Source of the DNA: a virus
Virus record (IMG/VR): IMGVR_UViG_3300020474_000128
Coordinates: 1-22,874 of that record
Strand: one strand, 5' to 3'
DNA: 22,874 bases
Shown: piece after piece, positions 5,855 through 22,874 of the stretch
Layout of the letters: the number at the start of each line of letters is the position of its first letter
How positions within the stretch are numbered: position 1 is the first letter of the stretch
Notes under the pieces: generated by a model
Seen by the model: the letters and a program-made list of their open reading frames with translations, nothing else
Databases searched by the model: none
Told to the model about the DNA's origin: nothing
Made by a program: the position numbers and the translations under genes

Positions 5855-6062
5855 AGTGGCGATGGAAAATATTATCGGAGTATTAGACGACACAATGGAC
5901 ACAATGCACAAAAGCGAAGTGTTGAGGAACAATCTTGTACAGCAACAGATAGAAATTGAGAAACAGATATCGTTGCTTGAAGGACAACTTCAACGCCAAA
6001 AAGAGTACCTTGCCAAAATAGAAGGCGGGTTAGATGTATTAGATGAACTAGCCAAGAAATGA
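5844..6062 (+). CDS. Small coiled-coil protein
   Basis: A 72-residue protein read from ATG 5844, which sits six bases after GGAG (5834-5837). A farther upstream ATG at 5793 is less likely because it lies deep in the previous gene without a ribosome site. It overlaps the previous gene by 11 bases. The segment from about residue 25 to the end (VLRNNLVQQQIEIEKQISLLEG onward, given here in part) is a continuous heptad-like helix rich in Q, E, K and L. It probably oligomerises or binds a partner; the function is unknown. Confidence 0.6.
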   Translation: MTVEVAMENIIGVLDDTMDTMHKSEVLRNNLVQQQIEIEKQISLLEGQLQRQKEYLAKIEGGLDVLDELAKK

Positions 6063-6706
6063 TTTGGGTAGTAGATGACTTCTATCCTAATCCTGATGAG
6101 ATTCGAAAGAAAGCACTCAGGTTAGATTTTTGGAGAGGCACATCTAAGAAACAAAAAGCAAAGATATTTCACCCAGGCCACAGAGCTATTCCAAATAGAC
6201 AATGGTGGTGGGAAAATAGAATTTACTTACGCAATCGTTGGAAGGACATAGCAAATGTTCAAGTGCATGATTTTGAAAGTATGAAATCGAGTTGTGCGTT
6301 TAACTTAGGATTTAAAGAAAAACAAAATAGATTTAACTGGCTTCACTCTGATGCTCAGTTTGAACCTAATACTTGTATGTATGCTTGTGTTATATATTTA
6401 ACACCAAATCCACCTCCGAATACAGGAACTCTGTTATTAGAAAGTCCAACAGGAAGTATCTATGATGAGAAGAAGTCAGGTAAATGGAAGAAGCCAGATA
6501 CCGTTTTTCAAGGAAACTTCTTTGACTACCCAGTTAGTGAACGATATAAAGTACACACTAAAGTAGAAAATAGATACAATCGTTTAATTATGTATGATGC
6601 TCGTATGCTACACGCTCCAGAAGATGCTGGCTTTGGCGATACCAAAGAAACTGCTAGATTAACACAAATAGGATTTTGGTATGGAGAAGATAGACTACAA
6701 ATTTAA
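6059..6706 (+). CDS. 2OG-oxygenase-like protein, DUF6445 type
   Basis: A 215-residue protein starting at an ATGA overlap. The N-terminus IWVVDDFYPNPDEIRKKAL is the hallmark of the DUF6445 group of oxygenase-like proteins. A complete-looking site follows: H96-S-D98 in WLHSDAQF, H185 in MLHAPEDAGFG and R200 in ETARLTQIGFW. The central YACVIYLTPNPPPNTGT matches the strand and turn seen in this group. It is the fourth clear oxygenase-fold protein in the window, separated from the earlier three by the structured-leader promoter. The substrate is unknown. Confidence 0.72.
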   Translation: MIWVVDDFYPNPDEIRKKALRLDFWRGTSKKQKAKIFHPGHRAIPNRQWWWENRIYLRNRWKDIANVQVHDFESMKSSCAFNLGFKEKQNRFNWLHSDAQFEPNTCMYACVIYLTPNPPPNTGTLLLESPTGSIYDEKKSGKWKKPDTVFQGNFFDYPVSERYKVHTKVENRYNRLIMYDARMLHAPEDAGFGDTKETARLTQIGFWYGEDRLQI

Positions 6707-6977
6707 TGAGGATACTGCACTAGAAGTTGTAAAGTCATATATAGATAAAACTTATGAACAACATTATGCAAAGGGTAAAATTCAGTCAACTGAGTTTGTA
6801 TTCGATGCAGAGCATGGAGAAGGGTTTTGTATTGGCAATATAATAAAGTATGCTCAGCGATATGGGAAGAAACAGGGACATAACCCTGTCGACTTAATGA
6901 AGATTATTCACTACGCAGTTATGCTCTATGGCATGAAACATACCAAAGTAGTAGACGGAGAAGAATATGGCGCTTAG
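6681..6977 (+). CDS. DUF3310-like small phage protein
   Basis: A 98-residue protein overlapping the previous gene by 26 bases. The motif FCIGNIIKYAQRYGKKQGHN followed by DLMKIIHYAVML matches the G-N-x-x-K-Y-x-x-R...D-L-x-K-x-x-x-Y pattern of the DUF3310/SaV-like family found in many phages, sometimes annotated as nucleotide-kinase-like without proof. The N-terminal 30 residues are helical and charged. Its biochemical role is not known. Confidence 0.6.
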   Translation: MEKIDYKFNEDTALEVVKSYIDKTYEQHYAKGKIQSTEFVFDAEHGEGFCIGNIIKYAQRYGKKQGHNPVDLMKIIHYAVMLYGMKHTKVVDGEEYGA

Positions 6978-9827: not shown

Positions 9828-10572
9828 TCGACCCGTACATATCTATGGAGATAGCCATACTGCAGGGTACGAAATTGACCATGATGAAATATTAGGCAGA
9901 GACTGCTTTAAAGAAAAGAAAGATTTAATAGTTCAGTTTGGATTACACCAAGCAATATACTATTGGAATCAAAAAATGGGTAGAGCCACAAATATGTCTG
10001 TATTTGAATTTGCCCATAGACAATTACCAAATGCTTGGGCACCTCTGTTTGACCCCAATGCTAGAATAGTTACTTGGCCTGCCATGAGTAATGATTATTT
10101 ACATTTACAAATAAAGTTTGATTATTATAAAAATAAGTTAAAATCTTATGAACATGTGTATCTACCTATACTCAGGCCCACGCGAACATTTAAACTCGAC
10201 AATCACGGCAGATATGATTTTAGTAATGAAGATTTAGATGGCAACTCAGGAGCATGCTCAGACTGTCATTACGCTACTCTTTGGGCAATAGAAATAAGTG
10301 CAGTCATGGACTTTTTAGACCAAAAGAAAATATCTTATAGCTTTATACAAAACTTTGATATATTTGATGAAACAGCAAGTGAAGACATTCATGTTATTTC
10401 TTTAAACTCTACAATGAAGTATCATGACTTCTTTTATGAAATACACAATAAAGTATTAGACTTAGCTCCTTCTTGGAGTTTAGCAAACTTTGGAAAGCTA
10501 AATGGTTTTTGGCACAACAACGCAGAAGGACATAAACAATTTGCAGCATACCTTAAAAAACACTTGACATAA
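9811..10572 (+). CDS. SGNH/GDSL-type hydrolase
   Basis: A 253-residue protein overlapping the previous gene by 17 bases. The N-terminal VHIYGDSHTAGYE carries the GDS block I with S15 as likely nucleophile. The C-terminal GFWHNNAEGHKQFAAYL matches block V, with H235 or H241 as the catalytic His. Members remove acyl groups from lipids or glycans, or act as acetylxylan-type esterases. No signal peptide is seen, so it probably acts in the cytoplasm or in the virion. It is paired in this window with a second, dissimilar SGNH protein at 15204. Its stop codon lies inside promoter P3. Confidence 0.72.
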   Translation: MRFTNNRPVHIYGDSHTAGYEIDHDEILGRDCFKEKKDLIVQFGLHQAIYYWNQKMGRATNMSVFEFAHRQLPNAWAPLFDPNARIVTWPAMSNDYLHLQIKFDYYKNKLKSYEHVYLPILRPTRTFKLDNHGRYDFSNEDLDGNSGACSDCHYATLWAIEISAVMDFLDQKKISYSFIQNFDIFDETASEDIHVISLNSTMKYHDFFYEIHNKVLDLAPSWSLANFGKLNGFWHNNAEGHKQFAAYLKKHLT

Positions 10573-10592
10573 CCTCACATTTTTAGTATAAT
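10555..10592 (+). promoter_or_regulatory. Sigma70-type promoter P3, leaderless
   Basis: An A tract (10555-10560), CAC, TTGACA at 10564-10569, a 17-bp spacer and TATAAT at 10587-10592 within TATAATATACA. The A of the next ATG (10599) lies seven bases past the -10, exactly where transcription should start, and no ribosome site can exist in the RNA. The upstream gene's TAA (10570-10572) is inside the spacer. Confidence 0.88.
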
Positions 10593-10598
10593 ATACAT

Positions 10599-11168
10599 AT
10601 GAATATTTTTATACTTGACGAAGATTTAGATAAATGTGCGGAGTATCATGTCGATAAACATATCGTCAAGATGCCGCTTGAGGCAGGACAAATGCTATGC
10701 ACAGTACATTGGACACAAAAATATGCAGGATACGTACCGCACAGAAAACTCACATCAGAAGAATGGGCATCAGTTTCCATTCAAAAAAAGAATGACCCGA
10801 GGGATTTCCCTTATCTCCCTACTATGTATAACCACCCTTGTACCATCTGGGCTAGGAGTTCCAAGTCAAACTATGACTGGCTCTACTGCTATGCCCTTGC
10901 CTTGGGAGAGGAATATACCTATCGATATGGCAAGGTGCATAAATCTGTCGAGATGGTATTGGGATTACCACCTATCGACCTCCCAGATATTGGACTTACA
11001 CCATTTGCCCAAGCAATGCCAGATGATTGCAAACGCGACGACGCTATTGAAGCCTACCGAGAGTTCTACCACAAAGACAAAGCCGTCTTTGCTGATTGGA
11101 AGTTTAGGGACAAGCCAGAGTGGTGGGACGAGCAATCAGCAGATTATGAAAACAGGATAAGCAGATAA
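10599..11168 (+). CDS. Conserved phage protein, possible pyrimidine-dimer-glycosylase relative
   Basis: A 189-residue protein opening with FILDEDLDKCAEYHVDKHIV and KMPLEAGQML, then NHPCTIWAR, NYDWLYCYALALGEEYTYRYGKVHKS (listed here as a pattern), LTPFAQAMPDD and a late W-K-x-R-D-K-P-E-W-W. This conserved pattern recurs in many phage and bacterial proteins. I have a weak memory of it being grouped with pyrimidine-dimer DNA glycosylases, but the T4 endonuclease V N-terminal motif is not visible, so function stays open. Abundant H, Y and W residues suggest a compact enzyme. ATG 10599 coincides with the predicted RNA start of P3, so translation is probably leaderless. Confidence 0.6.
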   Translation: MNIFILDEDLDKCAEYHVDKHIVKMPLEAGQMLCTVHWTQKYAGYVPHRKLTSEEWASVSIQKKNDPRDFPYLPTMYNHPCTIWARSSKSNYDWLYCYALALGEEYTYRYGKVHKSVEMVLGLPPIDLPDIGLTPFAQAMPDDCKRDDAIEAYREFYHKDKAVFADWKFRDKPEWWDEQSADYENRISR

Positions 11169-11207
11169 AAAATAGTTCTTGACATCGCCTTAAATATTTA
11201 GTATAAT
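11167..11207 (+). promoter_or_regulatory. Sigma70-type promoter P4, leaderless
   Basis: An A tract (11167-11172), TAGTTC, TTGACA at 11179-11184, a 17-bp spacer and TATAAT at 11202-11207 within TATAATATACA. The ligase ATG at 11214 again falls seven bases after the -10, so the mRNA should start at the AUG. The A tract overlaps the stop of the gene upstream. Confidence 0.9.
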
Positions 11208-11213
11208 ATACAA

Positions 11214-12170
11214 ATGAATAAAGATATAAGAGCATTTCTTAGCAAGTGTCGCGAGGCATATTTCAATGGTCGCCCTACCATACCTGATGAAGTGTATGAT
11301 AGGCTTGTTGAAAATGTTAATACAGATGAAGTGGGCTCAGCTACAGACAGTCGTTTTAAGCACCCCTTCCAAATGTTCTCACTACAAAAAGTCTTTGCAA
11401 ACGAAGATAAAGCACCTGACTGGGGCAAAGAAGTTGCAGTCACAACTACTAAGTTAGATGGTGCTGCCGTATCAATTACATATGTTGATGGTATCTTCCA
11501 CCAAGCCCTTACAAGAGGAGATGGTATTGCAGGACTAGACATTTCAGATAAAATCAAACACATAGTTCCAAAAGTATTAGAAACAGGACAAACAGGATAT
11601 GCTCTGTTCTCTGGCGTTCGTCAGATTACAGGCGAAGTAGTAGCTCCTAAAACTATCAAAAACAGTAGGAATTATGCAGCTGGTGCTCTTAATCTAAAAG
11701 ATGTAGACGAGTTCAAATCTCGTGATTTGACCTTTGTTGCATACGGAATTCAACCATACATTGGAGAAAGATGGCTAGAAGATATGAAACTTCTTGACAA
11801 CTGGTTTAATGTAATATCAATGGGAGACTGGAATGAGTTCCCAAACGATGGTATTGTATTCCGAGTTGATTCATACAGAGCATTTGATAAGTTAGGACAC
11901 ACGTCACACCACCCTAGAGGAGCATATGCATATAAAACCAGAGAGGCAGGCGTAGTAACAAAACTATTAGATGTTGAATGGAACACAGGAAAGAGTGGAG
12001 TTGTTGCTCCTATCGGAATCCTAGAGCCAATAGAAATCGGTGGTGCAACTATATCAAGAGCAACATTACATAATATTGCTTTTATAGATGAACTAGGATT
12101 AGAAATTGGTTGCAATGTAGAAGTAATTAGAAGTGGAGAAATTATCCCTAAAGTAGTGAGGCGTGTATGA
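11214..12170 (+). CDS. ligA: NAD-dependent DNA ligase, adenylation and OB domains (split gene, N half)
   Basis: A 318-residue N-terminal half of a LigA-type ligase, which seals nicks using NAD+. A shortened domain Ia retains PTIPDEVYDRL. The adenylation domain has K80-L-D-G (AMP-accepting lysine), R101-G-D-G, T-G-E141, S-R-N-Y-A-A-G-A-L (151-159), D212-G-I-V-F and K241 in AYAYKTRE. The OB domain has VVAPIGILEPIEIGGATISR, ATLHN and the ending G-E-I-I-P-K-V-V. It stops cleanly where a normal LigA of about 670 residues would continue into the zinc finger, and the missing zinc finger, HhH and BRCT domains are encoded at 16361-17116. No intein-like sequence is visible at its end. Expression is from P4, probably leaderless. 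Confidence 0.92.
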   Translation: MNKDIRAFLSKCREAYFNGRPTIPDEVYDRLVENVNTDEVGSATDSRFKHPFQMFSLQKVFANEDKAPDWGKEVAVTTTKLDGAAVSITYVDGIFHQALTRGDGIAGLDISDKIKHIVPKVLETGQTGYALFSGVRQITGEVVAPKTIKNSRNYAAGALNLKDVDEFKSRDLTFVAYGIQPYIGERWLEDMKLLDNWFNVISMGDWNEFPNDGIVFRVDSYRAFDKLGHTSHHPRGAYAYKTREAGVVTKLLDVEWNTGKSGVVAPIGILEPIEIGGATISRATLHNIAFIDELGLEIGCNVEVIRSGEIIPKVVRRV

Positions 12171-12358
12171 TATTATATTTAGAATGGCAATTAGAAAGAG
12201 CATATAGGGTATATTGCACAAAAATACCTTTTGGTAGTCCAACTCCTGATATCGAGTTCTTTAGAACAATGATTGAAGAAATGGAAGACCCAGACTACTT
12301 TGAACAATTATTAGATGAATGGGAGGGGTTAAATGACGCTCAAAGAGAAACTCATTAA
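12167..12358 (+). CDS. Small acidic protein of unknown function
   Basis: A 63-residue protein coupled to the ligase half by an ATGA overlap. It contains YLEWQLERAYRVY, G-S-P-T-P-D-I-E-F-F-R-T-M-I-E-E and an acidic helical C-terminus. I recall similar small E-W-Q-L-E-x-A-Y proteins from marine phages without assigned function. No motif points to activity. Confidence 0.6.
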   Translation: MILYLEWQLERAYRVYCTKIPFGSPTPDIEFFRTMIEEMEDPDYFEQLLDEWEGLNDAQRETH

Positions 12359-12659
12359 AAAGCAAGAACTGCCTAGTAAGGCGGAGATAGCAGGCTCAAA
12401 GCGTTGGTATAAAAGTGCCACCCCGAAACTCACTCTTGACTGGTGGATAAAGTGGACTGCTTCTTTGACTTTGTTGAGTGCTATGATACTACGCGGTGCA
12501 CAAGTAATGCCTTTTGTAGATTTATGCCTATCCTTCGCAGGTTGCGCAGGCTGGGTTGTAGTATCTATTATGTGGAAAGATAGAGCATTGATTATGTTGA
12601 ATACAGCTGCTTGTATCATTCTGGGTATGGGGATTCTTCGTGTTGTTGCAGGAGGTTAG
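12333..12659 (+). CDS. Small membrane protein, possibly DUF6552-like
   Basis: A 108-residue protein with three hydrophobic segments at about 37-58, 61-80 and 84-106 and a basic N-terminal tail. The ATG at 12333 follows GGGAGGGG by a few bases. The pattern K-W-T-A-S...V-D-L-C-L-S-F-A-G-C-A-G-W and W-K-D-R-A-L-I-M-L-N recalls the small DUF6552-type phage membrane proteins; this match is from memory and loose. An inner-membrane location is likely, the role unknown. Confidence 0.6.
   Translation: MTLKEKLIKKQELPSKAEIAGSKRWYKSATPKLTLDWWIKWTASLTLLSAMILRGAQVMPFVDLCLSFAGCAGWVVVSIMWKDRALIMLNTAACIILGMGILRVVAGG
12651..12655 (+). promoter_or_regulatory. Ribosome site GGAGG fixing a TTG start
   Basis: A perfect GGAGG, eight bases before TTG 12664. 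It favours TTG 12664 over an in-frame GTG at 12640 lying upstream of this site. Confidence 0.7.
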
Positions 12660-12663
12660 TCTC

Positions 12664-13035
12664 TTGGCATCAGTAGGAAAATACAACGAAACTTACTTTA
12701 AGAACCACCCCGAAGAAGCACAGAAAGAAGGAGTGCTATATGGGGTTGTCTTAGTAAATAAAAAGACACACGAAAGAGAAATAATCAAAGTGGGCATCGC
12801 AGCTGGTAAAGACTGGCGTCATGTTATTAAGAGAGCAAGAGGCTTTCAGGGTTATGATTTAAGAATTCAGCGAACATGGACTTCTACATTAGAAGAAGTG
12901 TTTAATATGGAGCAAATGCTTCATGCTAAGTTTTTAAATGATAAACTTGAACCGTCTCATAAGTTTGGAGGACATACAGAGTGTTTCAAACCTACGAGCA
13001 AGATTTTAGAGGAGTTTCCAAAGAAATGGACATGA
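12664..13035 (+). CDS. GIY-YIG-like nuclease domain protein (T5orf172/MUG113 type)
   Basis: A 123-residue protein read from TTG 12664 after a perfect GGAGG. The order fits the GIY-YIG fold as found in T5orf172/MUG113 proteins: V24-L-Y26-G-V-V-L in place of GIY, I-K-V-G44-I-A in place of YIG, a basic R-x-x-x-K-R-A-R-G-F helix (52-61), N-M-E83-Q-M-L-H87 with the catalytic-type Glu, and H-T-E106-C-F at the end. Such domains cut DNA in homing, repair or restriction. It is free-standing and sits between the two halves of the split ligase, where a homing role would make sense. Whether it is active or mobile cannot be shown here. Confidence 0.62.
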   Translation: MASVGKYNETYFKNHPEEAQKEGVLYGVVLVNKKTHEREIIKVGIAAGKDWRHVIKRARGFQGYDLRIQRTWTSTLEEVFNMEQMLHAKFLNDKLEPSHKFGGHTECFKPTSKILEEFPKKWT

Positions 13036-13166
13036 ATAAAACAGACAAACGCAAGTACGTGGAAAGTAGCAAACCACTAGACCAACATAAGTATAAAGGT
13101 TGGTATTGGCATTATGAAACTAAAAAGTTCTATAGATGGGACGATTTGCCGAATGAAAGTACATAG
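13026..13166 (+). CDS. Very small basic/aromatic protein
   Basis: A 46-residue frame from ATG 13026 (ATG 13032 is an equal alternative), with sequence MDMNKTDKRKYVESSKPLDQ followed by H-K-Y-K-G-W-Y-W-H-Y-E-T-K-K-F-Y-R-W-D-D-L. It overlaps the genes on both sides by 10-14 bases, as is usual in this operon. The dense W/Y pattern looks like a small beta domain rather than random translation. The ribosome site is poor, so confidence is moderate. Confidence 0.45.
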   Translation: MDMNKTDKRKYVESSKPLDQHKYKGWYWHYETKKFYRWDDLPNEST

Positions 13167-13707
13167 AGTAGGATATACATATTTTTCAATAGTAGAAAAC
13201 ATACTGCGTCCAGAACAATGTGACGCGCTTATAGAAACAGTAGCTGAATGGAAACAAACTAACGTCCCAGCGGGTTCTTATGAAGGTTGGAAAACAGGTG
13301 TATTAAATAGACAAGTTGGAAATCCAACTTCGGAGTACTTGCATTTATTTGACGAACACTTGCAAACATTTAATTGGTCAACTTATAGATTTAATTTACT
13401 TATGGAACAAAAGACTCATTTCTGTAATAGATATGAGGTAGGACATGAGTTAGGTTGGCACAGAGACGAAGATGAATCAATAGAAGATTTATTTAGAAGG
13501 ACGCCAGCAAAAAGAATATCGGTAAGTATATTTCTAAACGATAACTTTAAGGGAGGCGAGTTTATAATTGATGGAGTTGACGCTTGGAGGGCAAAGAAAG
13601 GTATGGCTATCTTCTTTCCCTCAGGAAAGCTTCACAGGGCTGCTCCAGTAACAGAAGGAGTTAAATATAATTATACTATAATGCAGAAAGGAGAACGAGG
13701 TGCATAG
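13153..13707 (+). CDS. 2OG/Fe(II) oxygenase
   Basis: A 184-residue enzyme starting at ATG 13153; an in-frame ATG at 13114 lies inside the previous gene and is less likely. The iron site is H103-R-D105 in LGWHRDEDES and H161 in GKLHRAAPV. The core strand is ISVSIFLNDNFKGGEF. At the usual Arg position for 2-oxoglutarate there is K171 (T-E-G-V-K-Y-N-Y), which some family members use. N-terminal IVENILRPEQCDALIE is typical of the family's opening helix. It is the fifth clear oxygenase of the window and lies just ahead of the carbamoyltransferase. Confidence 0.8.
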   Translation: MKVHRVGYTYFSIVENILRPEQCDALIETVAEWKQTNVPAGSYEGWKTGVLNRQVGNPTSEYLHLFDEHLQTFNWSTYRFNLLMEQKTHFCNRYEVGHELGWHRDEDESIEDLFRRTPAKRISVSIFLNDNFKGGEFIIDGVDAWRAKKGMAIFFPSGKLHRAAPVTEGVKYNYTIMQKGERGA

Positions 13708-13858
13708 ACTATGGAGACTATGGGCTCAATCATTAGGAGAAAAAGTAGGTGAAACAGATGAAGAAGCCAATGTGGTCGCAACTATGCGATCTATTATTGT
13801 TTTGGTTAATTTCTTTACCTGTTTTATTATTATTGCGGGAGTTGTTCATCATTGGTAA
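13700..13858 (+). CDS. Small single-pass membrane protein, 52 residues
   Basis: A short gene starting at GTG 13700, overlapping the oxygenase end, and stopping at TAA 13856. It encodes MHRLWRLWAQSLGEKVGETD, then an acidic turn and a hydrophobic helix (IIVLVNFFTCFIIIAGVV, about 32-49). The W-x-x-W-A-x-x-L-G-E-K-V-G-E motif ahead of a single helix recalls small membrane proteins of marine phages. Without it the interval would be an unexplained 144-base gap. Confidence 0.65.
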   Translation: MHRLWRLWAQSLGEKVGETDEEANVVATMRSIIVLVNFFTCFIIIAGVVHHW

Positions 13859-15207
13859 TTAAAGGTATTTCAGAGGGGTTTCATGACGCCTCAGTCGCAT
13901 TAGTAGAAGATAACAAGATATTGTGGGCTAAACACGCAGAGAGATTGACAAGAAAAAAGAATGATTCAGTCAACCCACTCCATCTAAGAAATGCAGACGC
14001 AGATATATCGGTTTTTTACGAAAATGTACCGCTAAAGAACGAAAGACGTATAGCACATTCACAAGTCCCTGTTTCAACAAAAATTTTTGATGATTGTGAT
14101 TATTACTGTAATCATCACGAAAGCCACGCAACAGGAGCGTATTATACTTCGCCTTTTACCGAGGACGCGGTTTGTCTCGTGATAGACGCGATAGGAGAAT
14201 GGACAACCAGCAGTATTTGGCAAGTAAAAGATAAAAAATTCAAGAAAGTTTTTGAAAAAATATATCCACAAAGTATTGGCCTGTTCTACTCAGCAATTAC
14301 CAAACGTATCGGTTTGAAACCCAATGAAGATGAATACATAACTATGGGAATGGCGGCATACGGTAATGTTAGTGTAGATATGACATGGTGCTTTAATGAG
14401 TGGGCAAACTGGCACAAAGGTTTCAGTTTAGAAGATTTCAAGGGAGAACACCCATACGATATAGCCGCAAGTGCCCAGGCACACGCAGAGTTAGAAATCG
14501 AAAAGTTAGTAGGATTAGCCGCTAACTGGGGGACAAATTTATGCTACGCAGGTGGAGTCGCACTCAACTGTGTAGCCAATAGTAAAATACTACACCACTA
14601 TTTTAAGAATGTTTGGATTTACCCAAATCCAGGCGACGCTGGTAGTAGTTTAGGTGCGGCACTATGGAAAAGCAAGAAGCATGTAGAGTACAGTCCTTAT
14701 CTAGGAACCGATATTCAACATCATGTTAATCCTAAAATAGTAGTAACACAATTATTAAAACATCAAGTAGTAGGAGTAGCAAATGGGAAAGCGGAGTTTG
14801 GGCCCCGAGCATTGGGCAATCGTAGTTTACTTGGCGATGTGCGTGTTGATATTAAGCGCAGAGTCAATAAGATTAAAAAACGCCAACAATTTAGACCCTT
14901 TGCACCTGCAATACTATCAGAGTTTGCAGATGAATATTTTGAGGGAATAACAAATCCTTATATGCAGTATGTATCTAAAGCAAAACATGATTACAAATCT
15001 GTAGTTCATGTTGACGGAACAAGTAGAGTACAGACTGTAGAGCCCGATTGCCCCAGCATACTACGACAGATATTAGAAGAATATTACGAACGAACAGGAG
15101 TTCCAATGCTATTGAATACAAGTCTGAATATAAAAGGACAACCAATAGTAGATAATTGGGCAGACGCTGTTGCGTTTGAAAAGAAGTATGGAGTACAAGT
15201 ATTTTGA
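13852..15207 (+). CDS. Carbamoyltransferase, NodU/CmcH/TobZ family
   Basis: A 451-residue enzyme that moves a carbamoyl group from carbamoyl phosphate, with ATP, to a hydroxyl. Kae1-like N-terminal motifs are IKGISEGFHDASVAL, NHHESHATGAYY (H88, H89 and H92 for metal), D-A-I-G-E-W (112-117), YAGGVALNCVAN and NPGDAGSSLGAA. The C-terminal domain has FGPRALGNRSLLGD, FRPFAPA and LLNTSLNIKGQPI. It is shorter than usual (about 550-600 residues) and ends a little after the last motif, but every hallmark is present. The TTG start at 13852 follows GGGAG and overlaps the previous stop by 7 bases. Possible acceptors are a sugar, or 5-hydroxymethylcytosine in DNA, since phage members of this family have been shown to make 5-carbamoyloxymethylcytosine. 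No hydroxymethylase is visible here. Confidence 0.88.
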   Translation: MVIKGISEGFHDASVALVEDNKILWAKHAERLTRKKNDSVNPLHLRNADADISVFYENVPLKNERRIAHSQVPVSTKIFDDCDYYCNHHESHATGAYYTSPFTEDAVCLVIDAIGEWTTSSIWQVKDKKFKKVFEKIYPQSIGLFYSAITKRIGLKPNEDEYITMGMAAYGNVSVDMTWCFNEWANWHKGFSLEDFKGEHPYDIAASAQAHAELEIEKLVGLAANWGTNLCYAGGVALNCVANSKILHHYFKNVWIYPNPGDAGSSLGAALWKSKKHVEYSPYLGTDIQHHVNPKIVVTQLLKHQVVGVANGKAEFGPRALGNRSLLGDVRVDIKRRVNKIKKRQQFRPFAPAILSEFADEYFEGITNPYMQYVSKAKHDYKSVVHVDGTSRVQTVEPDCPSILRQILEEYYERTGVPMLLNTSLNIKGQPIVDNWADAVAFEKKYGVQVF

Positions 15208-16166
15208 CGATTTTATTCGCTGGTTGTAGTTTCACCAATGGAATGGAACTAGAAAACAAAAAAGTAGACAGGTTTAGTAACATTGTCTCACGTGAACTCG
15301 GAGTCCTAGAATGGAACGAGGGAAAAGTAGGTGCTGGAAACGATTATATCCAGAGAGTAGTACAAAATGCAGTAATCGGACATAAACGATACTGGAGTAC
15401 AGAATTGCAAAGTATAAAAAAAGTAAGACATACAGGTACAGTTACAGATAAAGCAAACATTGATAAGAGAGATAGAAACAATCTTACAGAAGCTTTAGAT
15501 CCTTATGCACTATTTCCTGCAGAAAAGGTAGGGCATGTACATTACGGACAACAGTTTCAAAAAAGTAGAGAGTATGAAAAAGAAGGCTGGCCCGAGTTAG
15601 TAGTATGTATGTGGTCAGGTATAAATCGACTAGAAAATTTAAGATTATCAAATTTGACAGGAGATTGGAGTTGGTGTGTAAGTGCATGGAATAGATTTGC
15701 TTTAGAGCCCAAAACTTATAAAGCAAAAAGAACAAGTACAGTTTACATAGACCAACAGTACGAGCCTGGCGAAGATAACTTCATGCGAGGCTACATGATG
15801 CGTATTAGAAACGCACACTATAATTTACGTTTGACTCTAGGTAATATGATGGCGGTAAAATATATGCTGAAGGCAAAAGGCATACCGCAACTACATTATC
15901 TTTATTCAGGCGGACAGTATAAACCTCTACTATTCTTATTAGATGAGCCTGTTTATGAGAATACAAATAATTGGTGGGATTCACTTGATATAGACCGAAA
16001 GACAGCCGTAGCAGAATTGCCATGGCTAGAGTCCGAAGGCTTCTATGACCAAGCATTGAGACTAAAACAAGCAATTGGACCAAGAGACCACCCACTAGAA
16101 GAGGCTCATGCCAGTATGGCAGAAAGAATATTAGGAGATATTAAGAAAAATGGATTACTTAAATAA
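15204..16166 (+). CDS. SGNH hydrolase-like protein, second
   Basis: A 320-residue protein starting at TTG 15204, in a TTGA overlap with the carbamoyltransferase stop. Block I is ILFAGCSFTNGME with S9, block II is VGAGNDYIQRV, block III may be VVCMWSGINRLEN, and block V is RDHPLEEAHASMAERI with D295 and H296. This is the SGNH order, though block III has S-G-I-N-R for G-x-N-D. Coupling to the carbamoyltransferase suggests both enzymes act on the same substrate. It is not similar to the SGNH protein at 9811 beyond the motifs. Confidence 0.62.
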   Translation: MTILFAGCSFTNGMELENKKVDRFSNIVSRELGVLEWNEGKVGAGNDYIQRVVQNAVIGHKRYWSTELQSIKKVRHTGTVTDKANIDKRDRNNLTEALDPYALFPAEKVGHVHYGQQFQKSREYEKEGWPELVVCMWSGINRLENLRLSNLTGDWSWCVSAWNRFALEPKTYKAKRTSTVYIDQQYEPGEDNFMRGYMMRIRNAHYNLRLTLGNMMAVKYMLKAKGIPQLHYLYSGGQYKPLLFLLDEPVYENTNNWWDSLDIDRKTAVAELPWLESEGFYDQALRLKQAIGPRDHPLEEAHASMAERILGDIKKNGLLK

Positions 16167-16302
16167 ATTCATAAAACGAATTAAAACATGGTGGTTTGAG
16201 TGGCAGTTGAGATTACACTACCGCCCTGACACCTATGTATATGAAGATGAAGAAAATTTCGAACCTATCGAAGAAAGTCAGGATTCAAAAAATAGTTCTT
16301 GA
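16150..16302 (+). CDS. Small protein, 50 residues
   Basis: A short frame from ATG 16150, overlapping the SGNH gene by 17 bases and stopping at TGA 16300-16302, which is inside the -35 box of P5. The sequence MDYLNKFIKRIKTWWFEWQL is amphipathic and aromatic, followed by R-L-H-Y-R-P-D-T-Y-V-Y and an acidic tail. The helix could sit on a membrane surface. Coding potential is suggested by the coupling and by the otherwise empty interval. Confidence 0.5.
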   Translation: MDYLNKFIKRIKTWWFEWQLRLHYRPDTYVYEDEENFEPIEESQDSKNSS

Positions 16303-16327
16303 CAAATGGTGAAATTTCATCTATAAT
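16287..16327 (+). promoter_or_regulatory. Sigma70-type promoter P5
   Basis: An A tract (16287-16292), TAGTTC, TTGACA at 16299-16304, a 17-bp spacer and TATAAT at 16322-16327 within TATAATATACA. The predicted start is near 16334, leaving a 27-base leader with AGAGAGAG before TTG 16361. It serves the C-terminal ligase half and probably the HTH gene behind it. Confidence 0.9.
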
Positions 16328-16360
16328 ATACAATATAAATAAAAAAGAGAGAGAATCGAA

Positions 16361-17116
16361 TTGAGCCAAATTTTACCACCCACTAACTGTCCTTCTTGTG
16401 ATGCGACATTAGAGTTTGTTAATGACTTACTTTATTGTTTCAACAAGATGTGCCCAGCTCAGTGGAGTAAAAAACTAGAGCATTTCGGTAAGTCTCTCAA
16501 AATCAAAGGTCTCGGCCCAGCTACTTTACAGAAGTTGGAACTCGATGACTACCCAGAGCTGTATGAGCTTACTGTACAGGATATATCCAGCAGACTAGGC
16601 TCGGAGAAGATGGCAGACAAGTTAGTTACTGAAATTGAGAAGTCAAAATCAGTTGATTTACAAACCTTGTTGCCAGCTTTCTCCATTCCACTTTTCGGTC
16701 GGTCAGCTTCTCAAAAATTATGCGAGAAAATTTCGAAACTCGAAGAAATTTCAGAGAAAAGTTGTACTGAAGCGGGTATTGGCCCAAAAGCCACAGCAAA
16801 CCTTCTAACTTGGTTAGATGAAGAATTTTACCCAAACGAATACGATTCAAACCTACCCTTTACTTTTTCGGCAACGAAAACAGTACAAAGGGAAATTCTA
16901 GGGACAGTCTGTATTTCAGGTAGACTCAATTCATATCCAACAAAGGCTCGTGCTGCAGAGGCTCTGGAAACTCACGGCTATGCCGTGAAGAATAGTCTGA
17001 CAAAGGATTGTACTCATTTAATCAATGAGTCAGGAATTGAGTCAGCCAAAACGCAGACTGCTCGGGAACGAGGAGTCATTATTATAACAGATATAGCTAA
17101 TTTAATTGGAGAATAA
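16361..17116 (+). CDS. ligA: NAD-dependent DNA ligase, zinc finger, HhH and BRCT domains (split gene, C half)
   Basis: A 251-residue protein that begins exactly where a LigA zinc finger begins. It has C10-x2-C13-x12-C26-x4-C31, then helix-hairpin-helix domains (KIKGLGPATLQKL at 47-59, further HhH-like parts to about 155), and a BRCT domain at about 178-251 (LGTVCISGRLNSYPTKARAA, with late T-H-L-I and A-R-E-R-G-V-I-I-I-T). There is no adenylation domain. In ordinary LigA these domains hold the DNA and complete the clamp, so this protein is expected to associate with the product of 11214-12170. TTG 16361 is the start; translation depends on a purine-rich leader from P5. No intein or intron remnant is visible. 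Confidence 0.9.
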   Translation: MSQILPPTNCPSCDATLEFVNDLLYCFNKMCPAQWSKKLEHFGKSLKIKGLGPATLQKLELDDYPELYELTVQDISSRLGSEKMADKLVTEIEKSKSVDLQTLLPAFSIPLFGRSASQKLCEKISKLEEISEKSCTEAGIGPKATANLLTWLDEEFYPNEYDSNLPFTFSATKTVQREILGTVCISGRLNSYPTKARAAEALETHGYAVKNSLTKDCTHLINESGIESAKTQTARERGVIIITDIANLIGE

Positions 17117-17118
17117 AA

Positions 17119-17838
17119 ATGGCATTACCTAAATGGACAGATGAGAGAACATCATCTCTCGAGAACTTTGTAGGTTCTGAAAGCCCTGTTTCCCAAGCTA
17201 CTGTTGCTAACGCAGCAGAAGAACTTGAAACTTCAGTAAGAAGTGTAAGTTCTAAACTTAGGAAAATGGGTTATGATGTAGAGCTAGCTTCTAGCTCAAA
17301 CACAAAATCTTTCTCAGACGAGCAAGAAGCTACTTTAAGTAACTTCGTAACTGACAATTCAGGTCAGTACACTTATGCTGAGATCGCATCTAACTTTGAA
17401 GGCGGAGCATTTAGTGCTAAGTCAATTCAAGGAAAAATCCTTTCAATGCAACTAACAGAGCATGTTAAACCTGCTCCTAAAGTTGAGTCTGTAAAAACTT
17501 ACAGCGAAGACGAAGAAGCAACATTTATCGGAATGGTAAATGACGGTTCTTTCATTGAAGAGATTGCTGAATCTCTTGGTAAGAGTGTAAACTCTATCAG
17601 AGGTAAAGCTCTTTCATTACTTAGAGCTGGCGAAATAAACGCTATACCTAAGCAGAAAGAAACTAAAGGTTCAGGCAAAGCAGATCCTTTAGCTGACTTA
17701 GAGATTGACGACATGACTGTTGAATCAATCGCTGATGAAATCGGTAAAACTGTAAGGGGTGTAAAAACCATGCTTACAAGACGTGGTTTAGTTTGCGCTG
17801 ACTACGACGGTTCAGCTAGAAAAGAAAGAGTTCAATAA
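17119..17838 (+). CDS. Tandem helix-turn-helix repeat protein, probably DNA-binding
   Basis: A 239-residue protein with GGAGA six bases before ATG 17119. It contains about four diverged copies of a SANT/HTH-like unit: residues 5-53 (KWTDERTSSLENFV ... SVRSVSSKLRKMGY), 64-113 (SFSDEQEATLSNFV ... SAKSIQGKILSM), 126-172 (TYSEDEEATFIGMV ... IAESLGKSVNSIRGKAL) and 193-226 (IADEIGKTVRGVKTML, with the opening strand reduced). Each has an E/D-rich opening helix and a later S/T-V-x-x-[IV]-[RK] recognition-like helix. The last unit resembles the HTH of the protein at 8704. A terminator follows. A regulator or DNA-coating role is inferred. Confidence 0.65.
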   Translation: MALPKWTDERTSSLENFVGSESPVSQATVANAAEELETSVRSVSSKLRKMGYDVELASSSNTKSFSDEQEATLSNFVTDNSGQYTYAEIASNFEGGAFSAKSIQGKILSMQLTEHVKPAPKVESVKTYSEDEEATFIGMVNDGSFIEEIAESLGKSVNSIRGKALSLLRAGEINAIPKQKETKGSGKADPLADLEIDDMTVESIADEIGKTVRGVKTMLTRRGLVCADYDGSARKERVQ

Positions 17839-17887: not shown

Positions 17888-17900
17888 CTTGGGAGAGACA

Positions 17901-19262
17901 ATGACAGTAGAAAGCGCTTTATTAAAACAACTTTTATCGCAAGGAGATTTCGAGACTTGGAATCGCCTACAGGTGCATTATTTACCTGACGGCGAATATC
18001 AAAAGATTTGGAAGGTCGTGGATAAACACGTCCATAAGTTTCATGCATTACCCTCTTTTGAGGATTTAAAGTATGAGATTAGGTCAAGAGAACTTCAAGA
18101 GAAAATTTTTGCGATAGAAGCTGTAGAGACAGATGTCCCAGCGTATGAACTACTAGAATATCTCAAAGATTCATTCACTCAGAATGAAATCTTATCCAAA
18201 ATAGAAACATATATTGACGAAACAATCTCCATTGCAGATGCAAAGGAGAATATCGACTATTTGCAAGAAATGGTCGTACAAGTTCAGGATAGAGTTAACA
18301 CAGCCGACGATGCCGATACAATGGACATGGTTGAGTTATTCGATTCTGAAGAAGATTTAGCTAAGTATCTTCCTCTTGGGTTAAACCAAGACTATGATAT
18401 AAGCTATCAATTCTCTCCCAAAGACTTGGTCATTGTGGGGGCGCAACGAGGTCACGGAAAGTCCTTTACTTGCTGTAATATGGCAGTTAATGCCCAGCAA
18501 ATGGGACGTTCCGTGCTTTATTTCACAATCGAGATGGATCAGCGACCCATTCTGCAAAGAATGTGTGCTATGTCCACAGGAGTTCCACTAGGTAGACTAA
18601 TTAAACGAAACCTCTATGAAAAAGAGTGGAATCGTATTGGTGACTGGTGGGCAGACCGCTTTGAAGGTGGTCACGATATCCTCACACAACATAATGTGAG
18701 TGAGGATTTCGATAAGTTCCATTATGAACTCTCTCGTAAATGTGAATTAAAGAAGGAGGCTCAATTGGACGTATTTTACGACCCTAGCTTGACTCTTGCT
18801 AAGATTATTAGTACAGTTAGGCAAAAGAAAGTAGAATATCCCGATTTGGGTATGGTAATCGTAGATTATCTGAACCAAGTACGTCGTCACAATGCACCTA
18901 GTCGCTCAGGTCAGTATGAATGGACAGAACAAATCGAAATATCTAAAGGTTTGAAGGCACTAGCCCAAGACCAGCATGTTATGGTTATATCTGCCTTCCA
19001 AACAAACCCAAAAGGAGAGGTAAGATTCTCAAAAGGTATCGAAGATGCAGTAGATGCCTCATATACACTAGAACATTGGGGTAAAGAAGAAAATGCAATC
19101 AAGTTCAAGTGTAATAAAATGCGTTCAGGTGAGATGAAGTCGTTTATTTCAGAGATTGACTGGGAAACCTTGAAGATTGGACCACAATCTGCAATGGATC
19201 CTGATGAAAAAGCTGATTTAAAAGAACAAATGAACACAGGAGAAGATTACAATGATTTATGA
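17901..19262 (+). CDS. dnaB: Replicative DNA helicase, DnaB family
   Basis: A 453-residue hexameric helicase of the RecA/DnaB fold that unwinds DNA at the fork and normally partners the primase. The C-terminal motor has Walker A GAQRGHGKS (180-188), Walker B-like LGMVIVDYLNQ (316-326), I-S-A-F-Q-T-N-P (363-370, sensor-like) and K-C-N-K-M-R-S-G-E (403-411, arginine-finger region). The N-terminal domain (1-150) is helical and diverged from bacterial DnaB and from T4 gp41 as I remember it. I choose ATG 17901, just after GGGAGAG; an in-frame TTG at 17889 is less likely because it precedes that site. The gene lies directly after a terminator. Confidence 0.88.
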   Translation: MTVESALLKQLLSQGDFETWNRLQVHYLPDGEYQKIWKVVDKHVHKFHALPSFEDLKYEIRSRELQEKIFAIEAVETDVPAYELLEYLKDSFTQNEILSKIETYIDETISIADAKENIDYLQEMVVQVQDRVNTADDADTMDMVELFDSEEDLAKYLPLGLNQDYDISYQFSPKDLVIVGAQRGHGKSFTCCNMAVNAQQMGRSVLYFTIEMDQRPILQRMCAMSTGVPLGRLIKRNLYEKEWNRIGDWWADRFEGGHDILTQHNVSEDFDKFHYELSRKCELKKEAQLDVFYDPSLTLAKIISTVRQKKVEYPDLGMVIVDYLNQVRRHNAPSRSGQYEWTEQIEISKGLKALAQDQHVMVISAFQTNPKGEVRFSKGIEDAVDASYTLEHWGKEENAIKFKCNKMRSGEMKSFISEIDWETLKIGPQSAMDPDEKADLKEQMNTGEDYNDL

Positions 19263-22538: not shown

Positions 22539-22874
22539 ATGATAGCAATAGATTTATTAAAAGAAAAGGGATTACCATTTACTGTCAAAGGACAGGACGC
22601 TATCATATCATGCCTAAATCCTGAGCATGATGACACGAACCCAAGCCTTAGAGTAGACAAAGTAACAGGCATGATGCATTGCTTTTCATGTGGGTTCAAA
22701 GGTAACTTATTTACACACTTCGGTGCACCAGAGAGTCCACTAGAAGTCAGATTACACAGAATTAAAGACAAGATTGCAAAGACGAGAAGTCAAACCATAG
22801 GTATTCAACTCCCAGAAGACCGTATCGAATGGAAAGGTGGTCCGTACAGAAATATCAGCGAGGAAACCCTCAAG
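22539..22874 (+). CDS. DNA primase, CHC2 zinc-finger type (N-terminal part)
   Basis: The first 112 residues of a primase, starting at ATG 22539 and running off the window end with no stop. The zinc finger is C25-x4-H30 in CLNPEHDDTNPSLRVD and C48-x2-C51 in MHCFSCGFKGNLF, the CHC2 motif that reads template DNA when RNA primers are begun. The N-D-x-N-P-S-L-R pattern and the F-K-G-N-L-F-T-H-F-G end are standard for the family and resemble marine phage primases. The catalytic TOPRIM domain lies beyond the window. With the helicase upstream it forms a replication pair. The transcript from P6 has almost no leader. Confidence 0.88.
   Translation, partial: MIAIDLLKEKGLPFTVKGQDAIISCLNPEHDDTNPSLRVDKVTGMMHCFSCGFKGNLFTHFGAPESPLEVRLHRIKDKIAKTRSQTIGIQLPEDRIEWKGGPYRNISEETLK

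Follow-up and report, generated by a model that had tools for sequence, protein, structure and literature searches.

The window (the whole stretch of 22,874 nucleotides analysed here) carries two genes that are almost certainly the ligA and ligB of a T5-type heterodimeric NAD-dependent DNA ligase, located in the replication module of a marine phage related to the Demerecviridae. The phage is a metagenomic member of an uncultured marine lineage related to that family. The two genes, the domains and conserved residues of their products, the recurrence of the split in relatives and the single group formed by split ligases in the tree were all observed directly. That this pair assembles and seals nicks is most likely, by analogy with the ligases of the phages PR1 and T5.

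Two genes encode the halves of a NAD-dependent DNA ligase

The ligA gene (positions 11214 to 12170, plus strand) starts with ATG and encodes subunit A, a protein of 318 aa with a short domain Ia, an adenylation domain and an OB domain. The frame is open and intact over its whole length. Pfam recognizes the adenylation domain (E 6.6e-27) and the OB domain (E 2.1e-23). Residues 4-318 align to positions 3-323 of the 325 in the PHROGs family phrog_3359, 'NAD-dependent DNA ligase' (E 2.8e-96), and a separate adenylation and OB gene of this family is expected of a T5-type heterodimeric ligase. The KxDG of motif I with its catalytic lysine is present, and most of the other catalytic and motif residues checked are also kept. 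In the alignment with E. coli LigA, R208 is replaced by N and K290 by R, and the R277 region is deleted. We take these to be important positions of the E. coli enzyme. A nearly identical pattern of changes is found in T5 and PR1.

The ligB gene (16361 to 17116, plus strand) starts with TTG and encodes subunit B, 251 aa with a four-cysteine zinc finger, an HhH domain and a BRCT domain. This frame is also open and intact. Pfam reports the BRCT domain, and none of the four zinc-finger cysteines is missing. The separate zinc finger-HhH-BRCT gene of a T5-type ligase is represented by the match to phrog_3498, also named 'NAD-dependent DNA ligase' (E 3.4e-60, residues 3-243 against positions 2-245 of 256). 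Modelled as a single chain by AlphaFold, each subunit gives a confident structure (mean pLDDT 86.5 for LigA and 87.8 for LigB). LigA is matched by 1188 phage records and LigB by 931, the latter mostly T5-like. The top matches are annotated as subunit A of T5-like phages and as subunit B, respectively, with 42-44% identity for A and B together.

E. coli LigA (PDB 2OWO) is a single chain of 671 aa with the domain order Ia-adenylation-OB-zinc finger-HhH-BRCT. The phage halves combined have the same order, although domain Ia and the adenylation domain are each missing parts in the A half. PHROGs keeps the halves as two separate families; each also matches a segment of the full-length family phrog_3869, and the two segments are consecutive. 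Aligned to the E. coli protein, subunit A stops at residue 391 and subunit B starts at residue 399, so the break lies within the linker that joins the OB domain to the zinc finger. The original prediction of a ligase split into an adenylation and OB half followed by a zinc finger, HhH and BRCT half is borne out by Pfam, PHROGs and this alignment. It also held that the break is at a domain border and that the C half begins with the zinc finger. The first part stands, with subunit A finishing at the last OB strand; the second needs correction, as the zinc finger starts about 9 residues into subunit B and not at its first residue.

Relationship to the ligases of T5 and PR1

In T5 (AY543070) ligA (T5.116) and ligB (T5.117) are also separate genes, each with an annotated promoter before it, and the break is at the same domain border as in the window. 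Identity to the T5 proteins is 42-43% for A and 36% for B. The order after ligB in T5 is D5, D6 helicase, primase and polymerase. In the window a D5-like transcriptional regulator (17119 to 17838) adjoins ligB, as it does in T5, and is followed by a D6-like DnaB-type replicative helicase (17889 to 19262) and later by a DNA primase (22539 to 22874), of which only the start is present before the gene runs off the window. All are on the plus strand. This placement in a replication module of ligA, ligB, D5, D6 helicase and primase, with the gene order of T5, is again that of a T5-type heterodimeric ligase. The two arrangements differ in the ligA-ligB gap, which is about 0.2 kb in T5 and 4.2 kb with nine ORFs in the window. 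GCGC sites, which correspond to T5-like nick sites, number 11 in the window against about 28 expected from composition, a count that has no bearing either way on a nicked genome.

The nearest solved structures for both halves are PDB 9HU3 and 9I5I (released January and February 2026), which contain two chains on nicked DNA. The PR1 heterodimer is known here from the title of these entries, 'PR1 phage heterodimeric DNA ligase in complex with 21-mer nicked DNA'. Their aligned chain A is 100% identical to the protein of the T5-like Providencia phage vB_PreS_PR1, and the window ligase shares about 37-40% identity with the PR1 enzyme. In PR1 about 0.2 kb separates ligA from ligB, and the pair is followed by a gene in the D5 position, a helicase and a primase. 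T5 ligA and ligB, the T5-like phage genome papers that name subunits A and B of the ligase (PMC4319617, PMC5519627) and the PR1 structures refute the idea that a phage ligase made from two genes may not have been described.

Assembly in trans without splicing, as originally proposed, is very probable on the model of the PR1 heterodimer. Subunit A, with its NAD-binding, adenylation and OB parts, would take up AMP from NAD+. Subunit B would grip the DNA through its zinc finger, HhH and BRCT domains. The two would assemble around a nick without covalent joining and then seal it. Sealing would serve replication and perhaps also act on nicks in the injected DNA, as has been proposed for T5-like phages.

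Promoters and an implied leaderless ligA message

Each ligase gene is preceded by a sigma-70-type promoter that matches TTGACA-N17-TATAAT at 12 of 12 positions, at 11179 to 11207 for ligA and at 16299 to 16327 for ligB (both plus strand). After the -10 box come 6 nt and then the ATG of ligA; for ligB the interval to the start codon is 33 nt. In the marine loci described below the distance from the start of a perfect or near-perfect promoter to the gene is 35-36 nt for ligA and 53-65 nt for ligB; four deep-branching copies of ligA are exceptions to the fixed distance. The claim that each half has a strong promoter of its own is upheld by the 12/12 matches and by their conservation in relatives at a nearly fixed distance.

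Because the -10 box ends only 6 nt before the ligA ATG, and the frame has no possible start further upstream, a transcript from this promoter would be leaderless. The leader of T5 ligA, in contrast, is about 25-30 nt. A leaderless ligA message that is conserved in the marine relatives is implied by the sequence, and it is possibly a new observation. The marine loci contain 155 distinct perfect promoters, which include close relatives and hence are not independent events. In 36 of them an ORF starts exactly 6 nt past the -10 box, where about 0.2 would be expected at random positions. The distances from -10 box to ORF have a second mode at 20-36 nt. One further case in the window is the ORF at 10599: in the region 10564-10601 the -10 box of a perfect sigma-70-type promoter ends exactly 6 nt before the ATG, and a leaderless message is again implied.

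The marine lineage might have uncoupled the two subunits, with a leaderless ligA and a leadered ligB placed kilobases apart, such that their amounts or timing differ and one of them serves a separate function; we regard this as unlikely. Another reading would make subunit A a minimal ligase or adenylation factor that works alone and subunit B a nick-binding accessory, the two being expressed independently and in a ratio other than 1:1. The separate conserved promoters, the different 5' leaders and the distance between the genes are consistent with such a parting of functions, but both halves are retained together and conserved at similar levels, and the related PR1 subunits are a heterodimer on nicked DNA. 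This reading is very improbable, and a heterodimeric ligase remains the preferred reading.

Recurrence of the split and phylogeny

Two scans of IMG/VR yielded 114 loci with 54-95% identity, many of which hold one half only, with the contig ending. In all marine viral loci with both halves the genes are separate and on the same strand, with ligA upstream of ligB. A search for recurrence of the split and its spacing had been proposed with the original prediction; every relative with both halves has the split, and the gap is mostly 1.4-6 kb. Full-length copies among these relatives measure 311-324 aa for subunit A and 249-260 aa for subunit B. No second ligase was seen in nine long relatives (two of 103-105 kb), each of which has a single OB-domain match.

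The wide spacing on a single metagenomic fragment could in principle reflect decay or an artefact, either a full-length ligA broken by insertion of the cargo or a misjoining of contigs. Against this, dozens of marine contigs assembled independently of one another (54-95% identity) show the same arrangement, as do cultured T5-like phages, a check that speaks against an assembly join. The intact frames, the clean domain borders and the catalytic and zinc-binding residues, which are invariant or nearly so, likewise argue against it, and we give this explanation next to no credence. As the original prediction argued, the halves are not decayed: the frames are intact, the catalytic and zinc residues are kept and the split recurs in relatives.

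Split inteins are known from fractured phage genes. Joining of the halves by protein trans-splicing is nevertheless extremely improbable, since the end of A and the start of B leave no room for an intein fragment, lengths are constant among relatives and the related PR1 enzyme was deposited as a two-chain heterodimer. Neither an intein nor a fused ligase copy was found in the window, a 22.9 kb fragment of its genome. Neither half carries additional sequence at its ends, which confirms the expectation of no intein at the break.

In a concatenated tree all 29 split ligases sampled cluster together (98/98; 97% of bootstrap trees), separate from the 11 full-length ligases, a small number of rows, and the data do not give the root. 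The window ligase falls within this cluster alongside T5, PR1 and the rest, and away from the full-length enzymes. The marine lineage is placed beside the cultured Demerecviridae. The simplest reading is one ancient fission in the common ancestor of the split ligases.

A scan of genome contigs found one split pair, two N-half matches and full-length ligases. The split pair (L137) is on a contig of 3158 bases assigned to the Alphaproteobacteria MAG SI073_bin67, where ligA and ligB are 91 nt apart and a D5-like gene adjoins them. It is probably a phage contig, and is a weak hint at hosts. One N-half match (L138, a contig of an Aureispira MAG, 6001-6942) is a T5-type N-half ligase with 49% identity that ends like subunit A; subunit B was not found in roughly 1 kb downstream of it. 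The other (L139) has no B in its stretch, which is cut by the contig end. Two further candidates for split ligases were set aside. Serratia phage 2050HW has three annotated ligase pieces that resemble a full-length gene with a broken frame or a faulty annotation, not a T5-type split, and two jumbo-phage papers both report full-length ligases.

Cargo between the ligase genes

The predicted 4.2 kb between the halves contains nine plausible ORFs, confirming the number proposed. These lie at 12167 to 16302 on the plus strand and start at 12167, 12333, 12640, 12981, 13114, 13700, 13852, 15204 and 16150. Four have an assignment, all on the plus strand: DUF6552 (12333), a T5orf172 domain (12640-13035), a 2OG-Fe(II) oxygenase (13114) and a carbamoyltransferase (13852-15207) with the N and C domains of Carbam_trans and a match to the phrog 'Nol-like carbamoyltransferase'. 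The oxygenase and carbamoyltransferase genes are near each other.

The order of the cargo genes is kept in outline among relatives. The T5orf172 gene is found in all marine viral relatives checked that have a complete gap, including L073 and L111 with their short gaps, both of which are missing the carbamoyltransferase. The T5orf172 gene could be a mobile element behind the insertion site. The ligA-ligB gap is 1.4-5.9 kb in the marine loci, and about 6.1 kb, as inferred, in one 103-kb contig if it is circular. In the other split phages examined it is 0.1-1.2 kb. Given the short spacers elsewhere, such as the 91 nt of L137, the marine gap is an expanded spacer or an insertion site within one. 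What sets the marine lineage apart is no more than this wider spacing and the cargo. A single fission in the ancestor of T5-like phages would have parted the genes, with cargo accumulating later in the gap of the marine lineage.

Implications

The promoters that imply leaderless messages, a side observation here, may be worth more than the ligase finding. The ligase finding itself extends the T5-type heterodimeric enzyme from cultured phages of enterobacteria, Vibrio, Aeromonas and similar hosts to a marine lineage that is uncultured and has many metagenomic members. A further suggestion is that the fission predates the separation of this lineage from the known Demerecviridae. The two subunits have stayed together even where cargo has pushed their genes as much as about 6 kb from each other.
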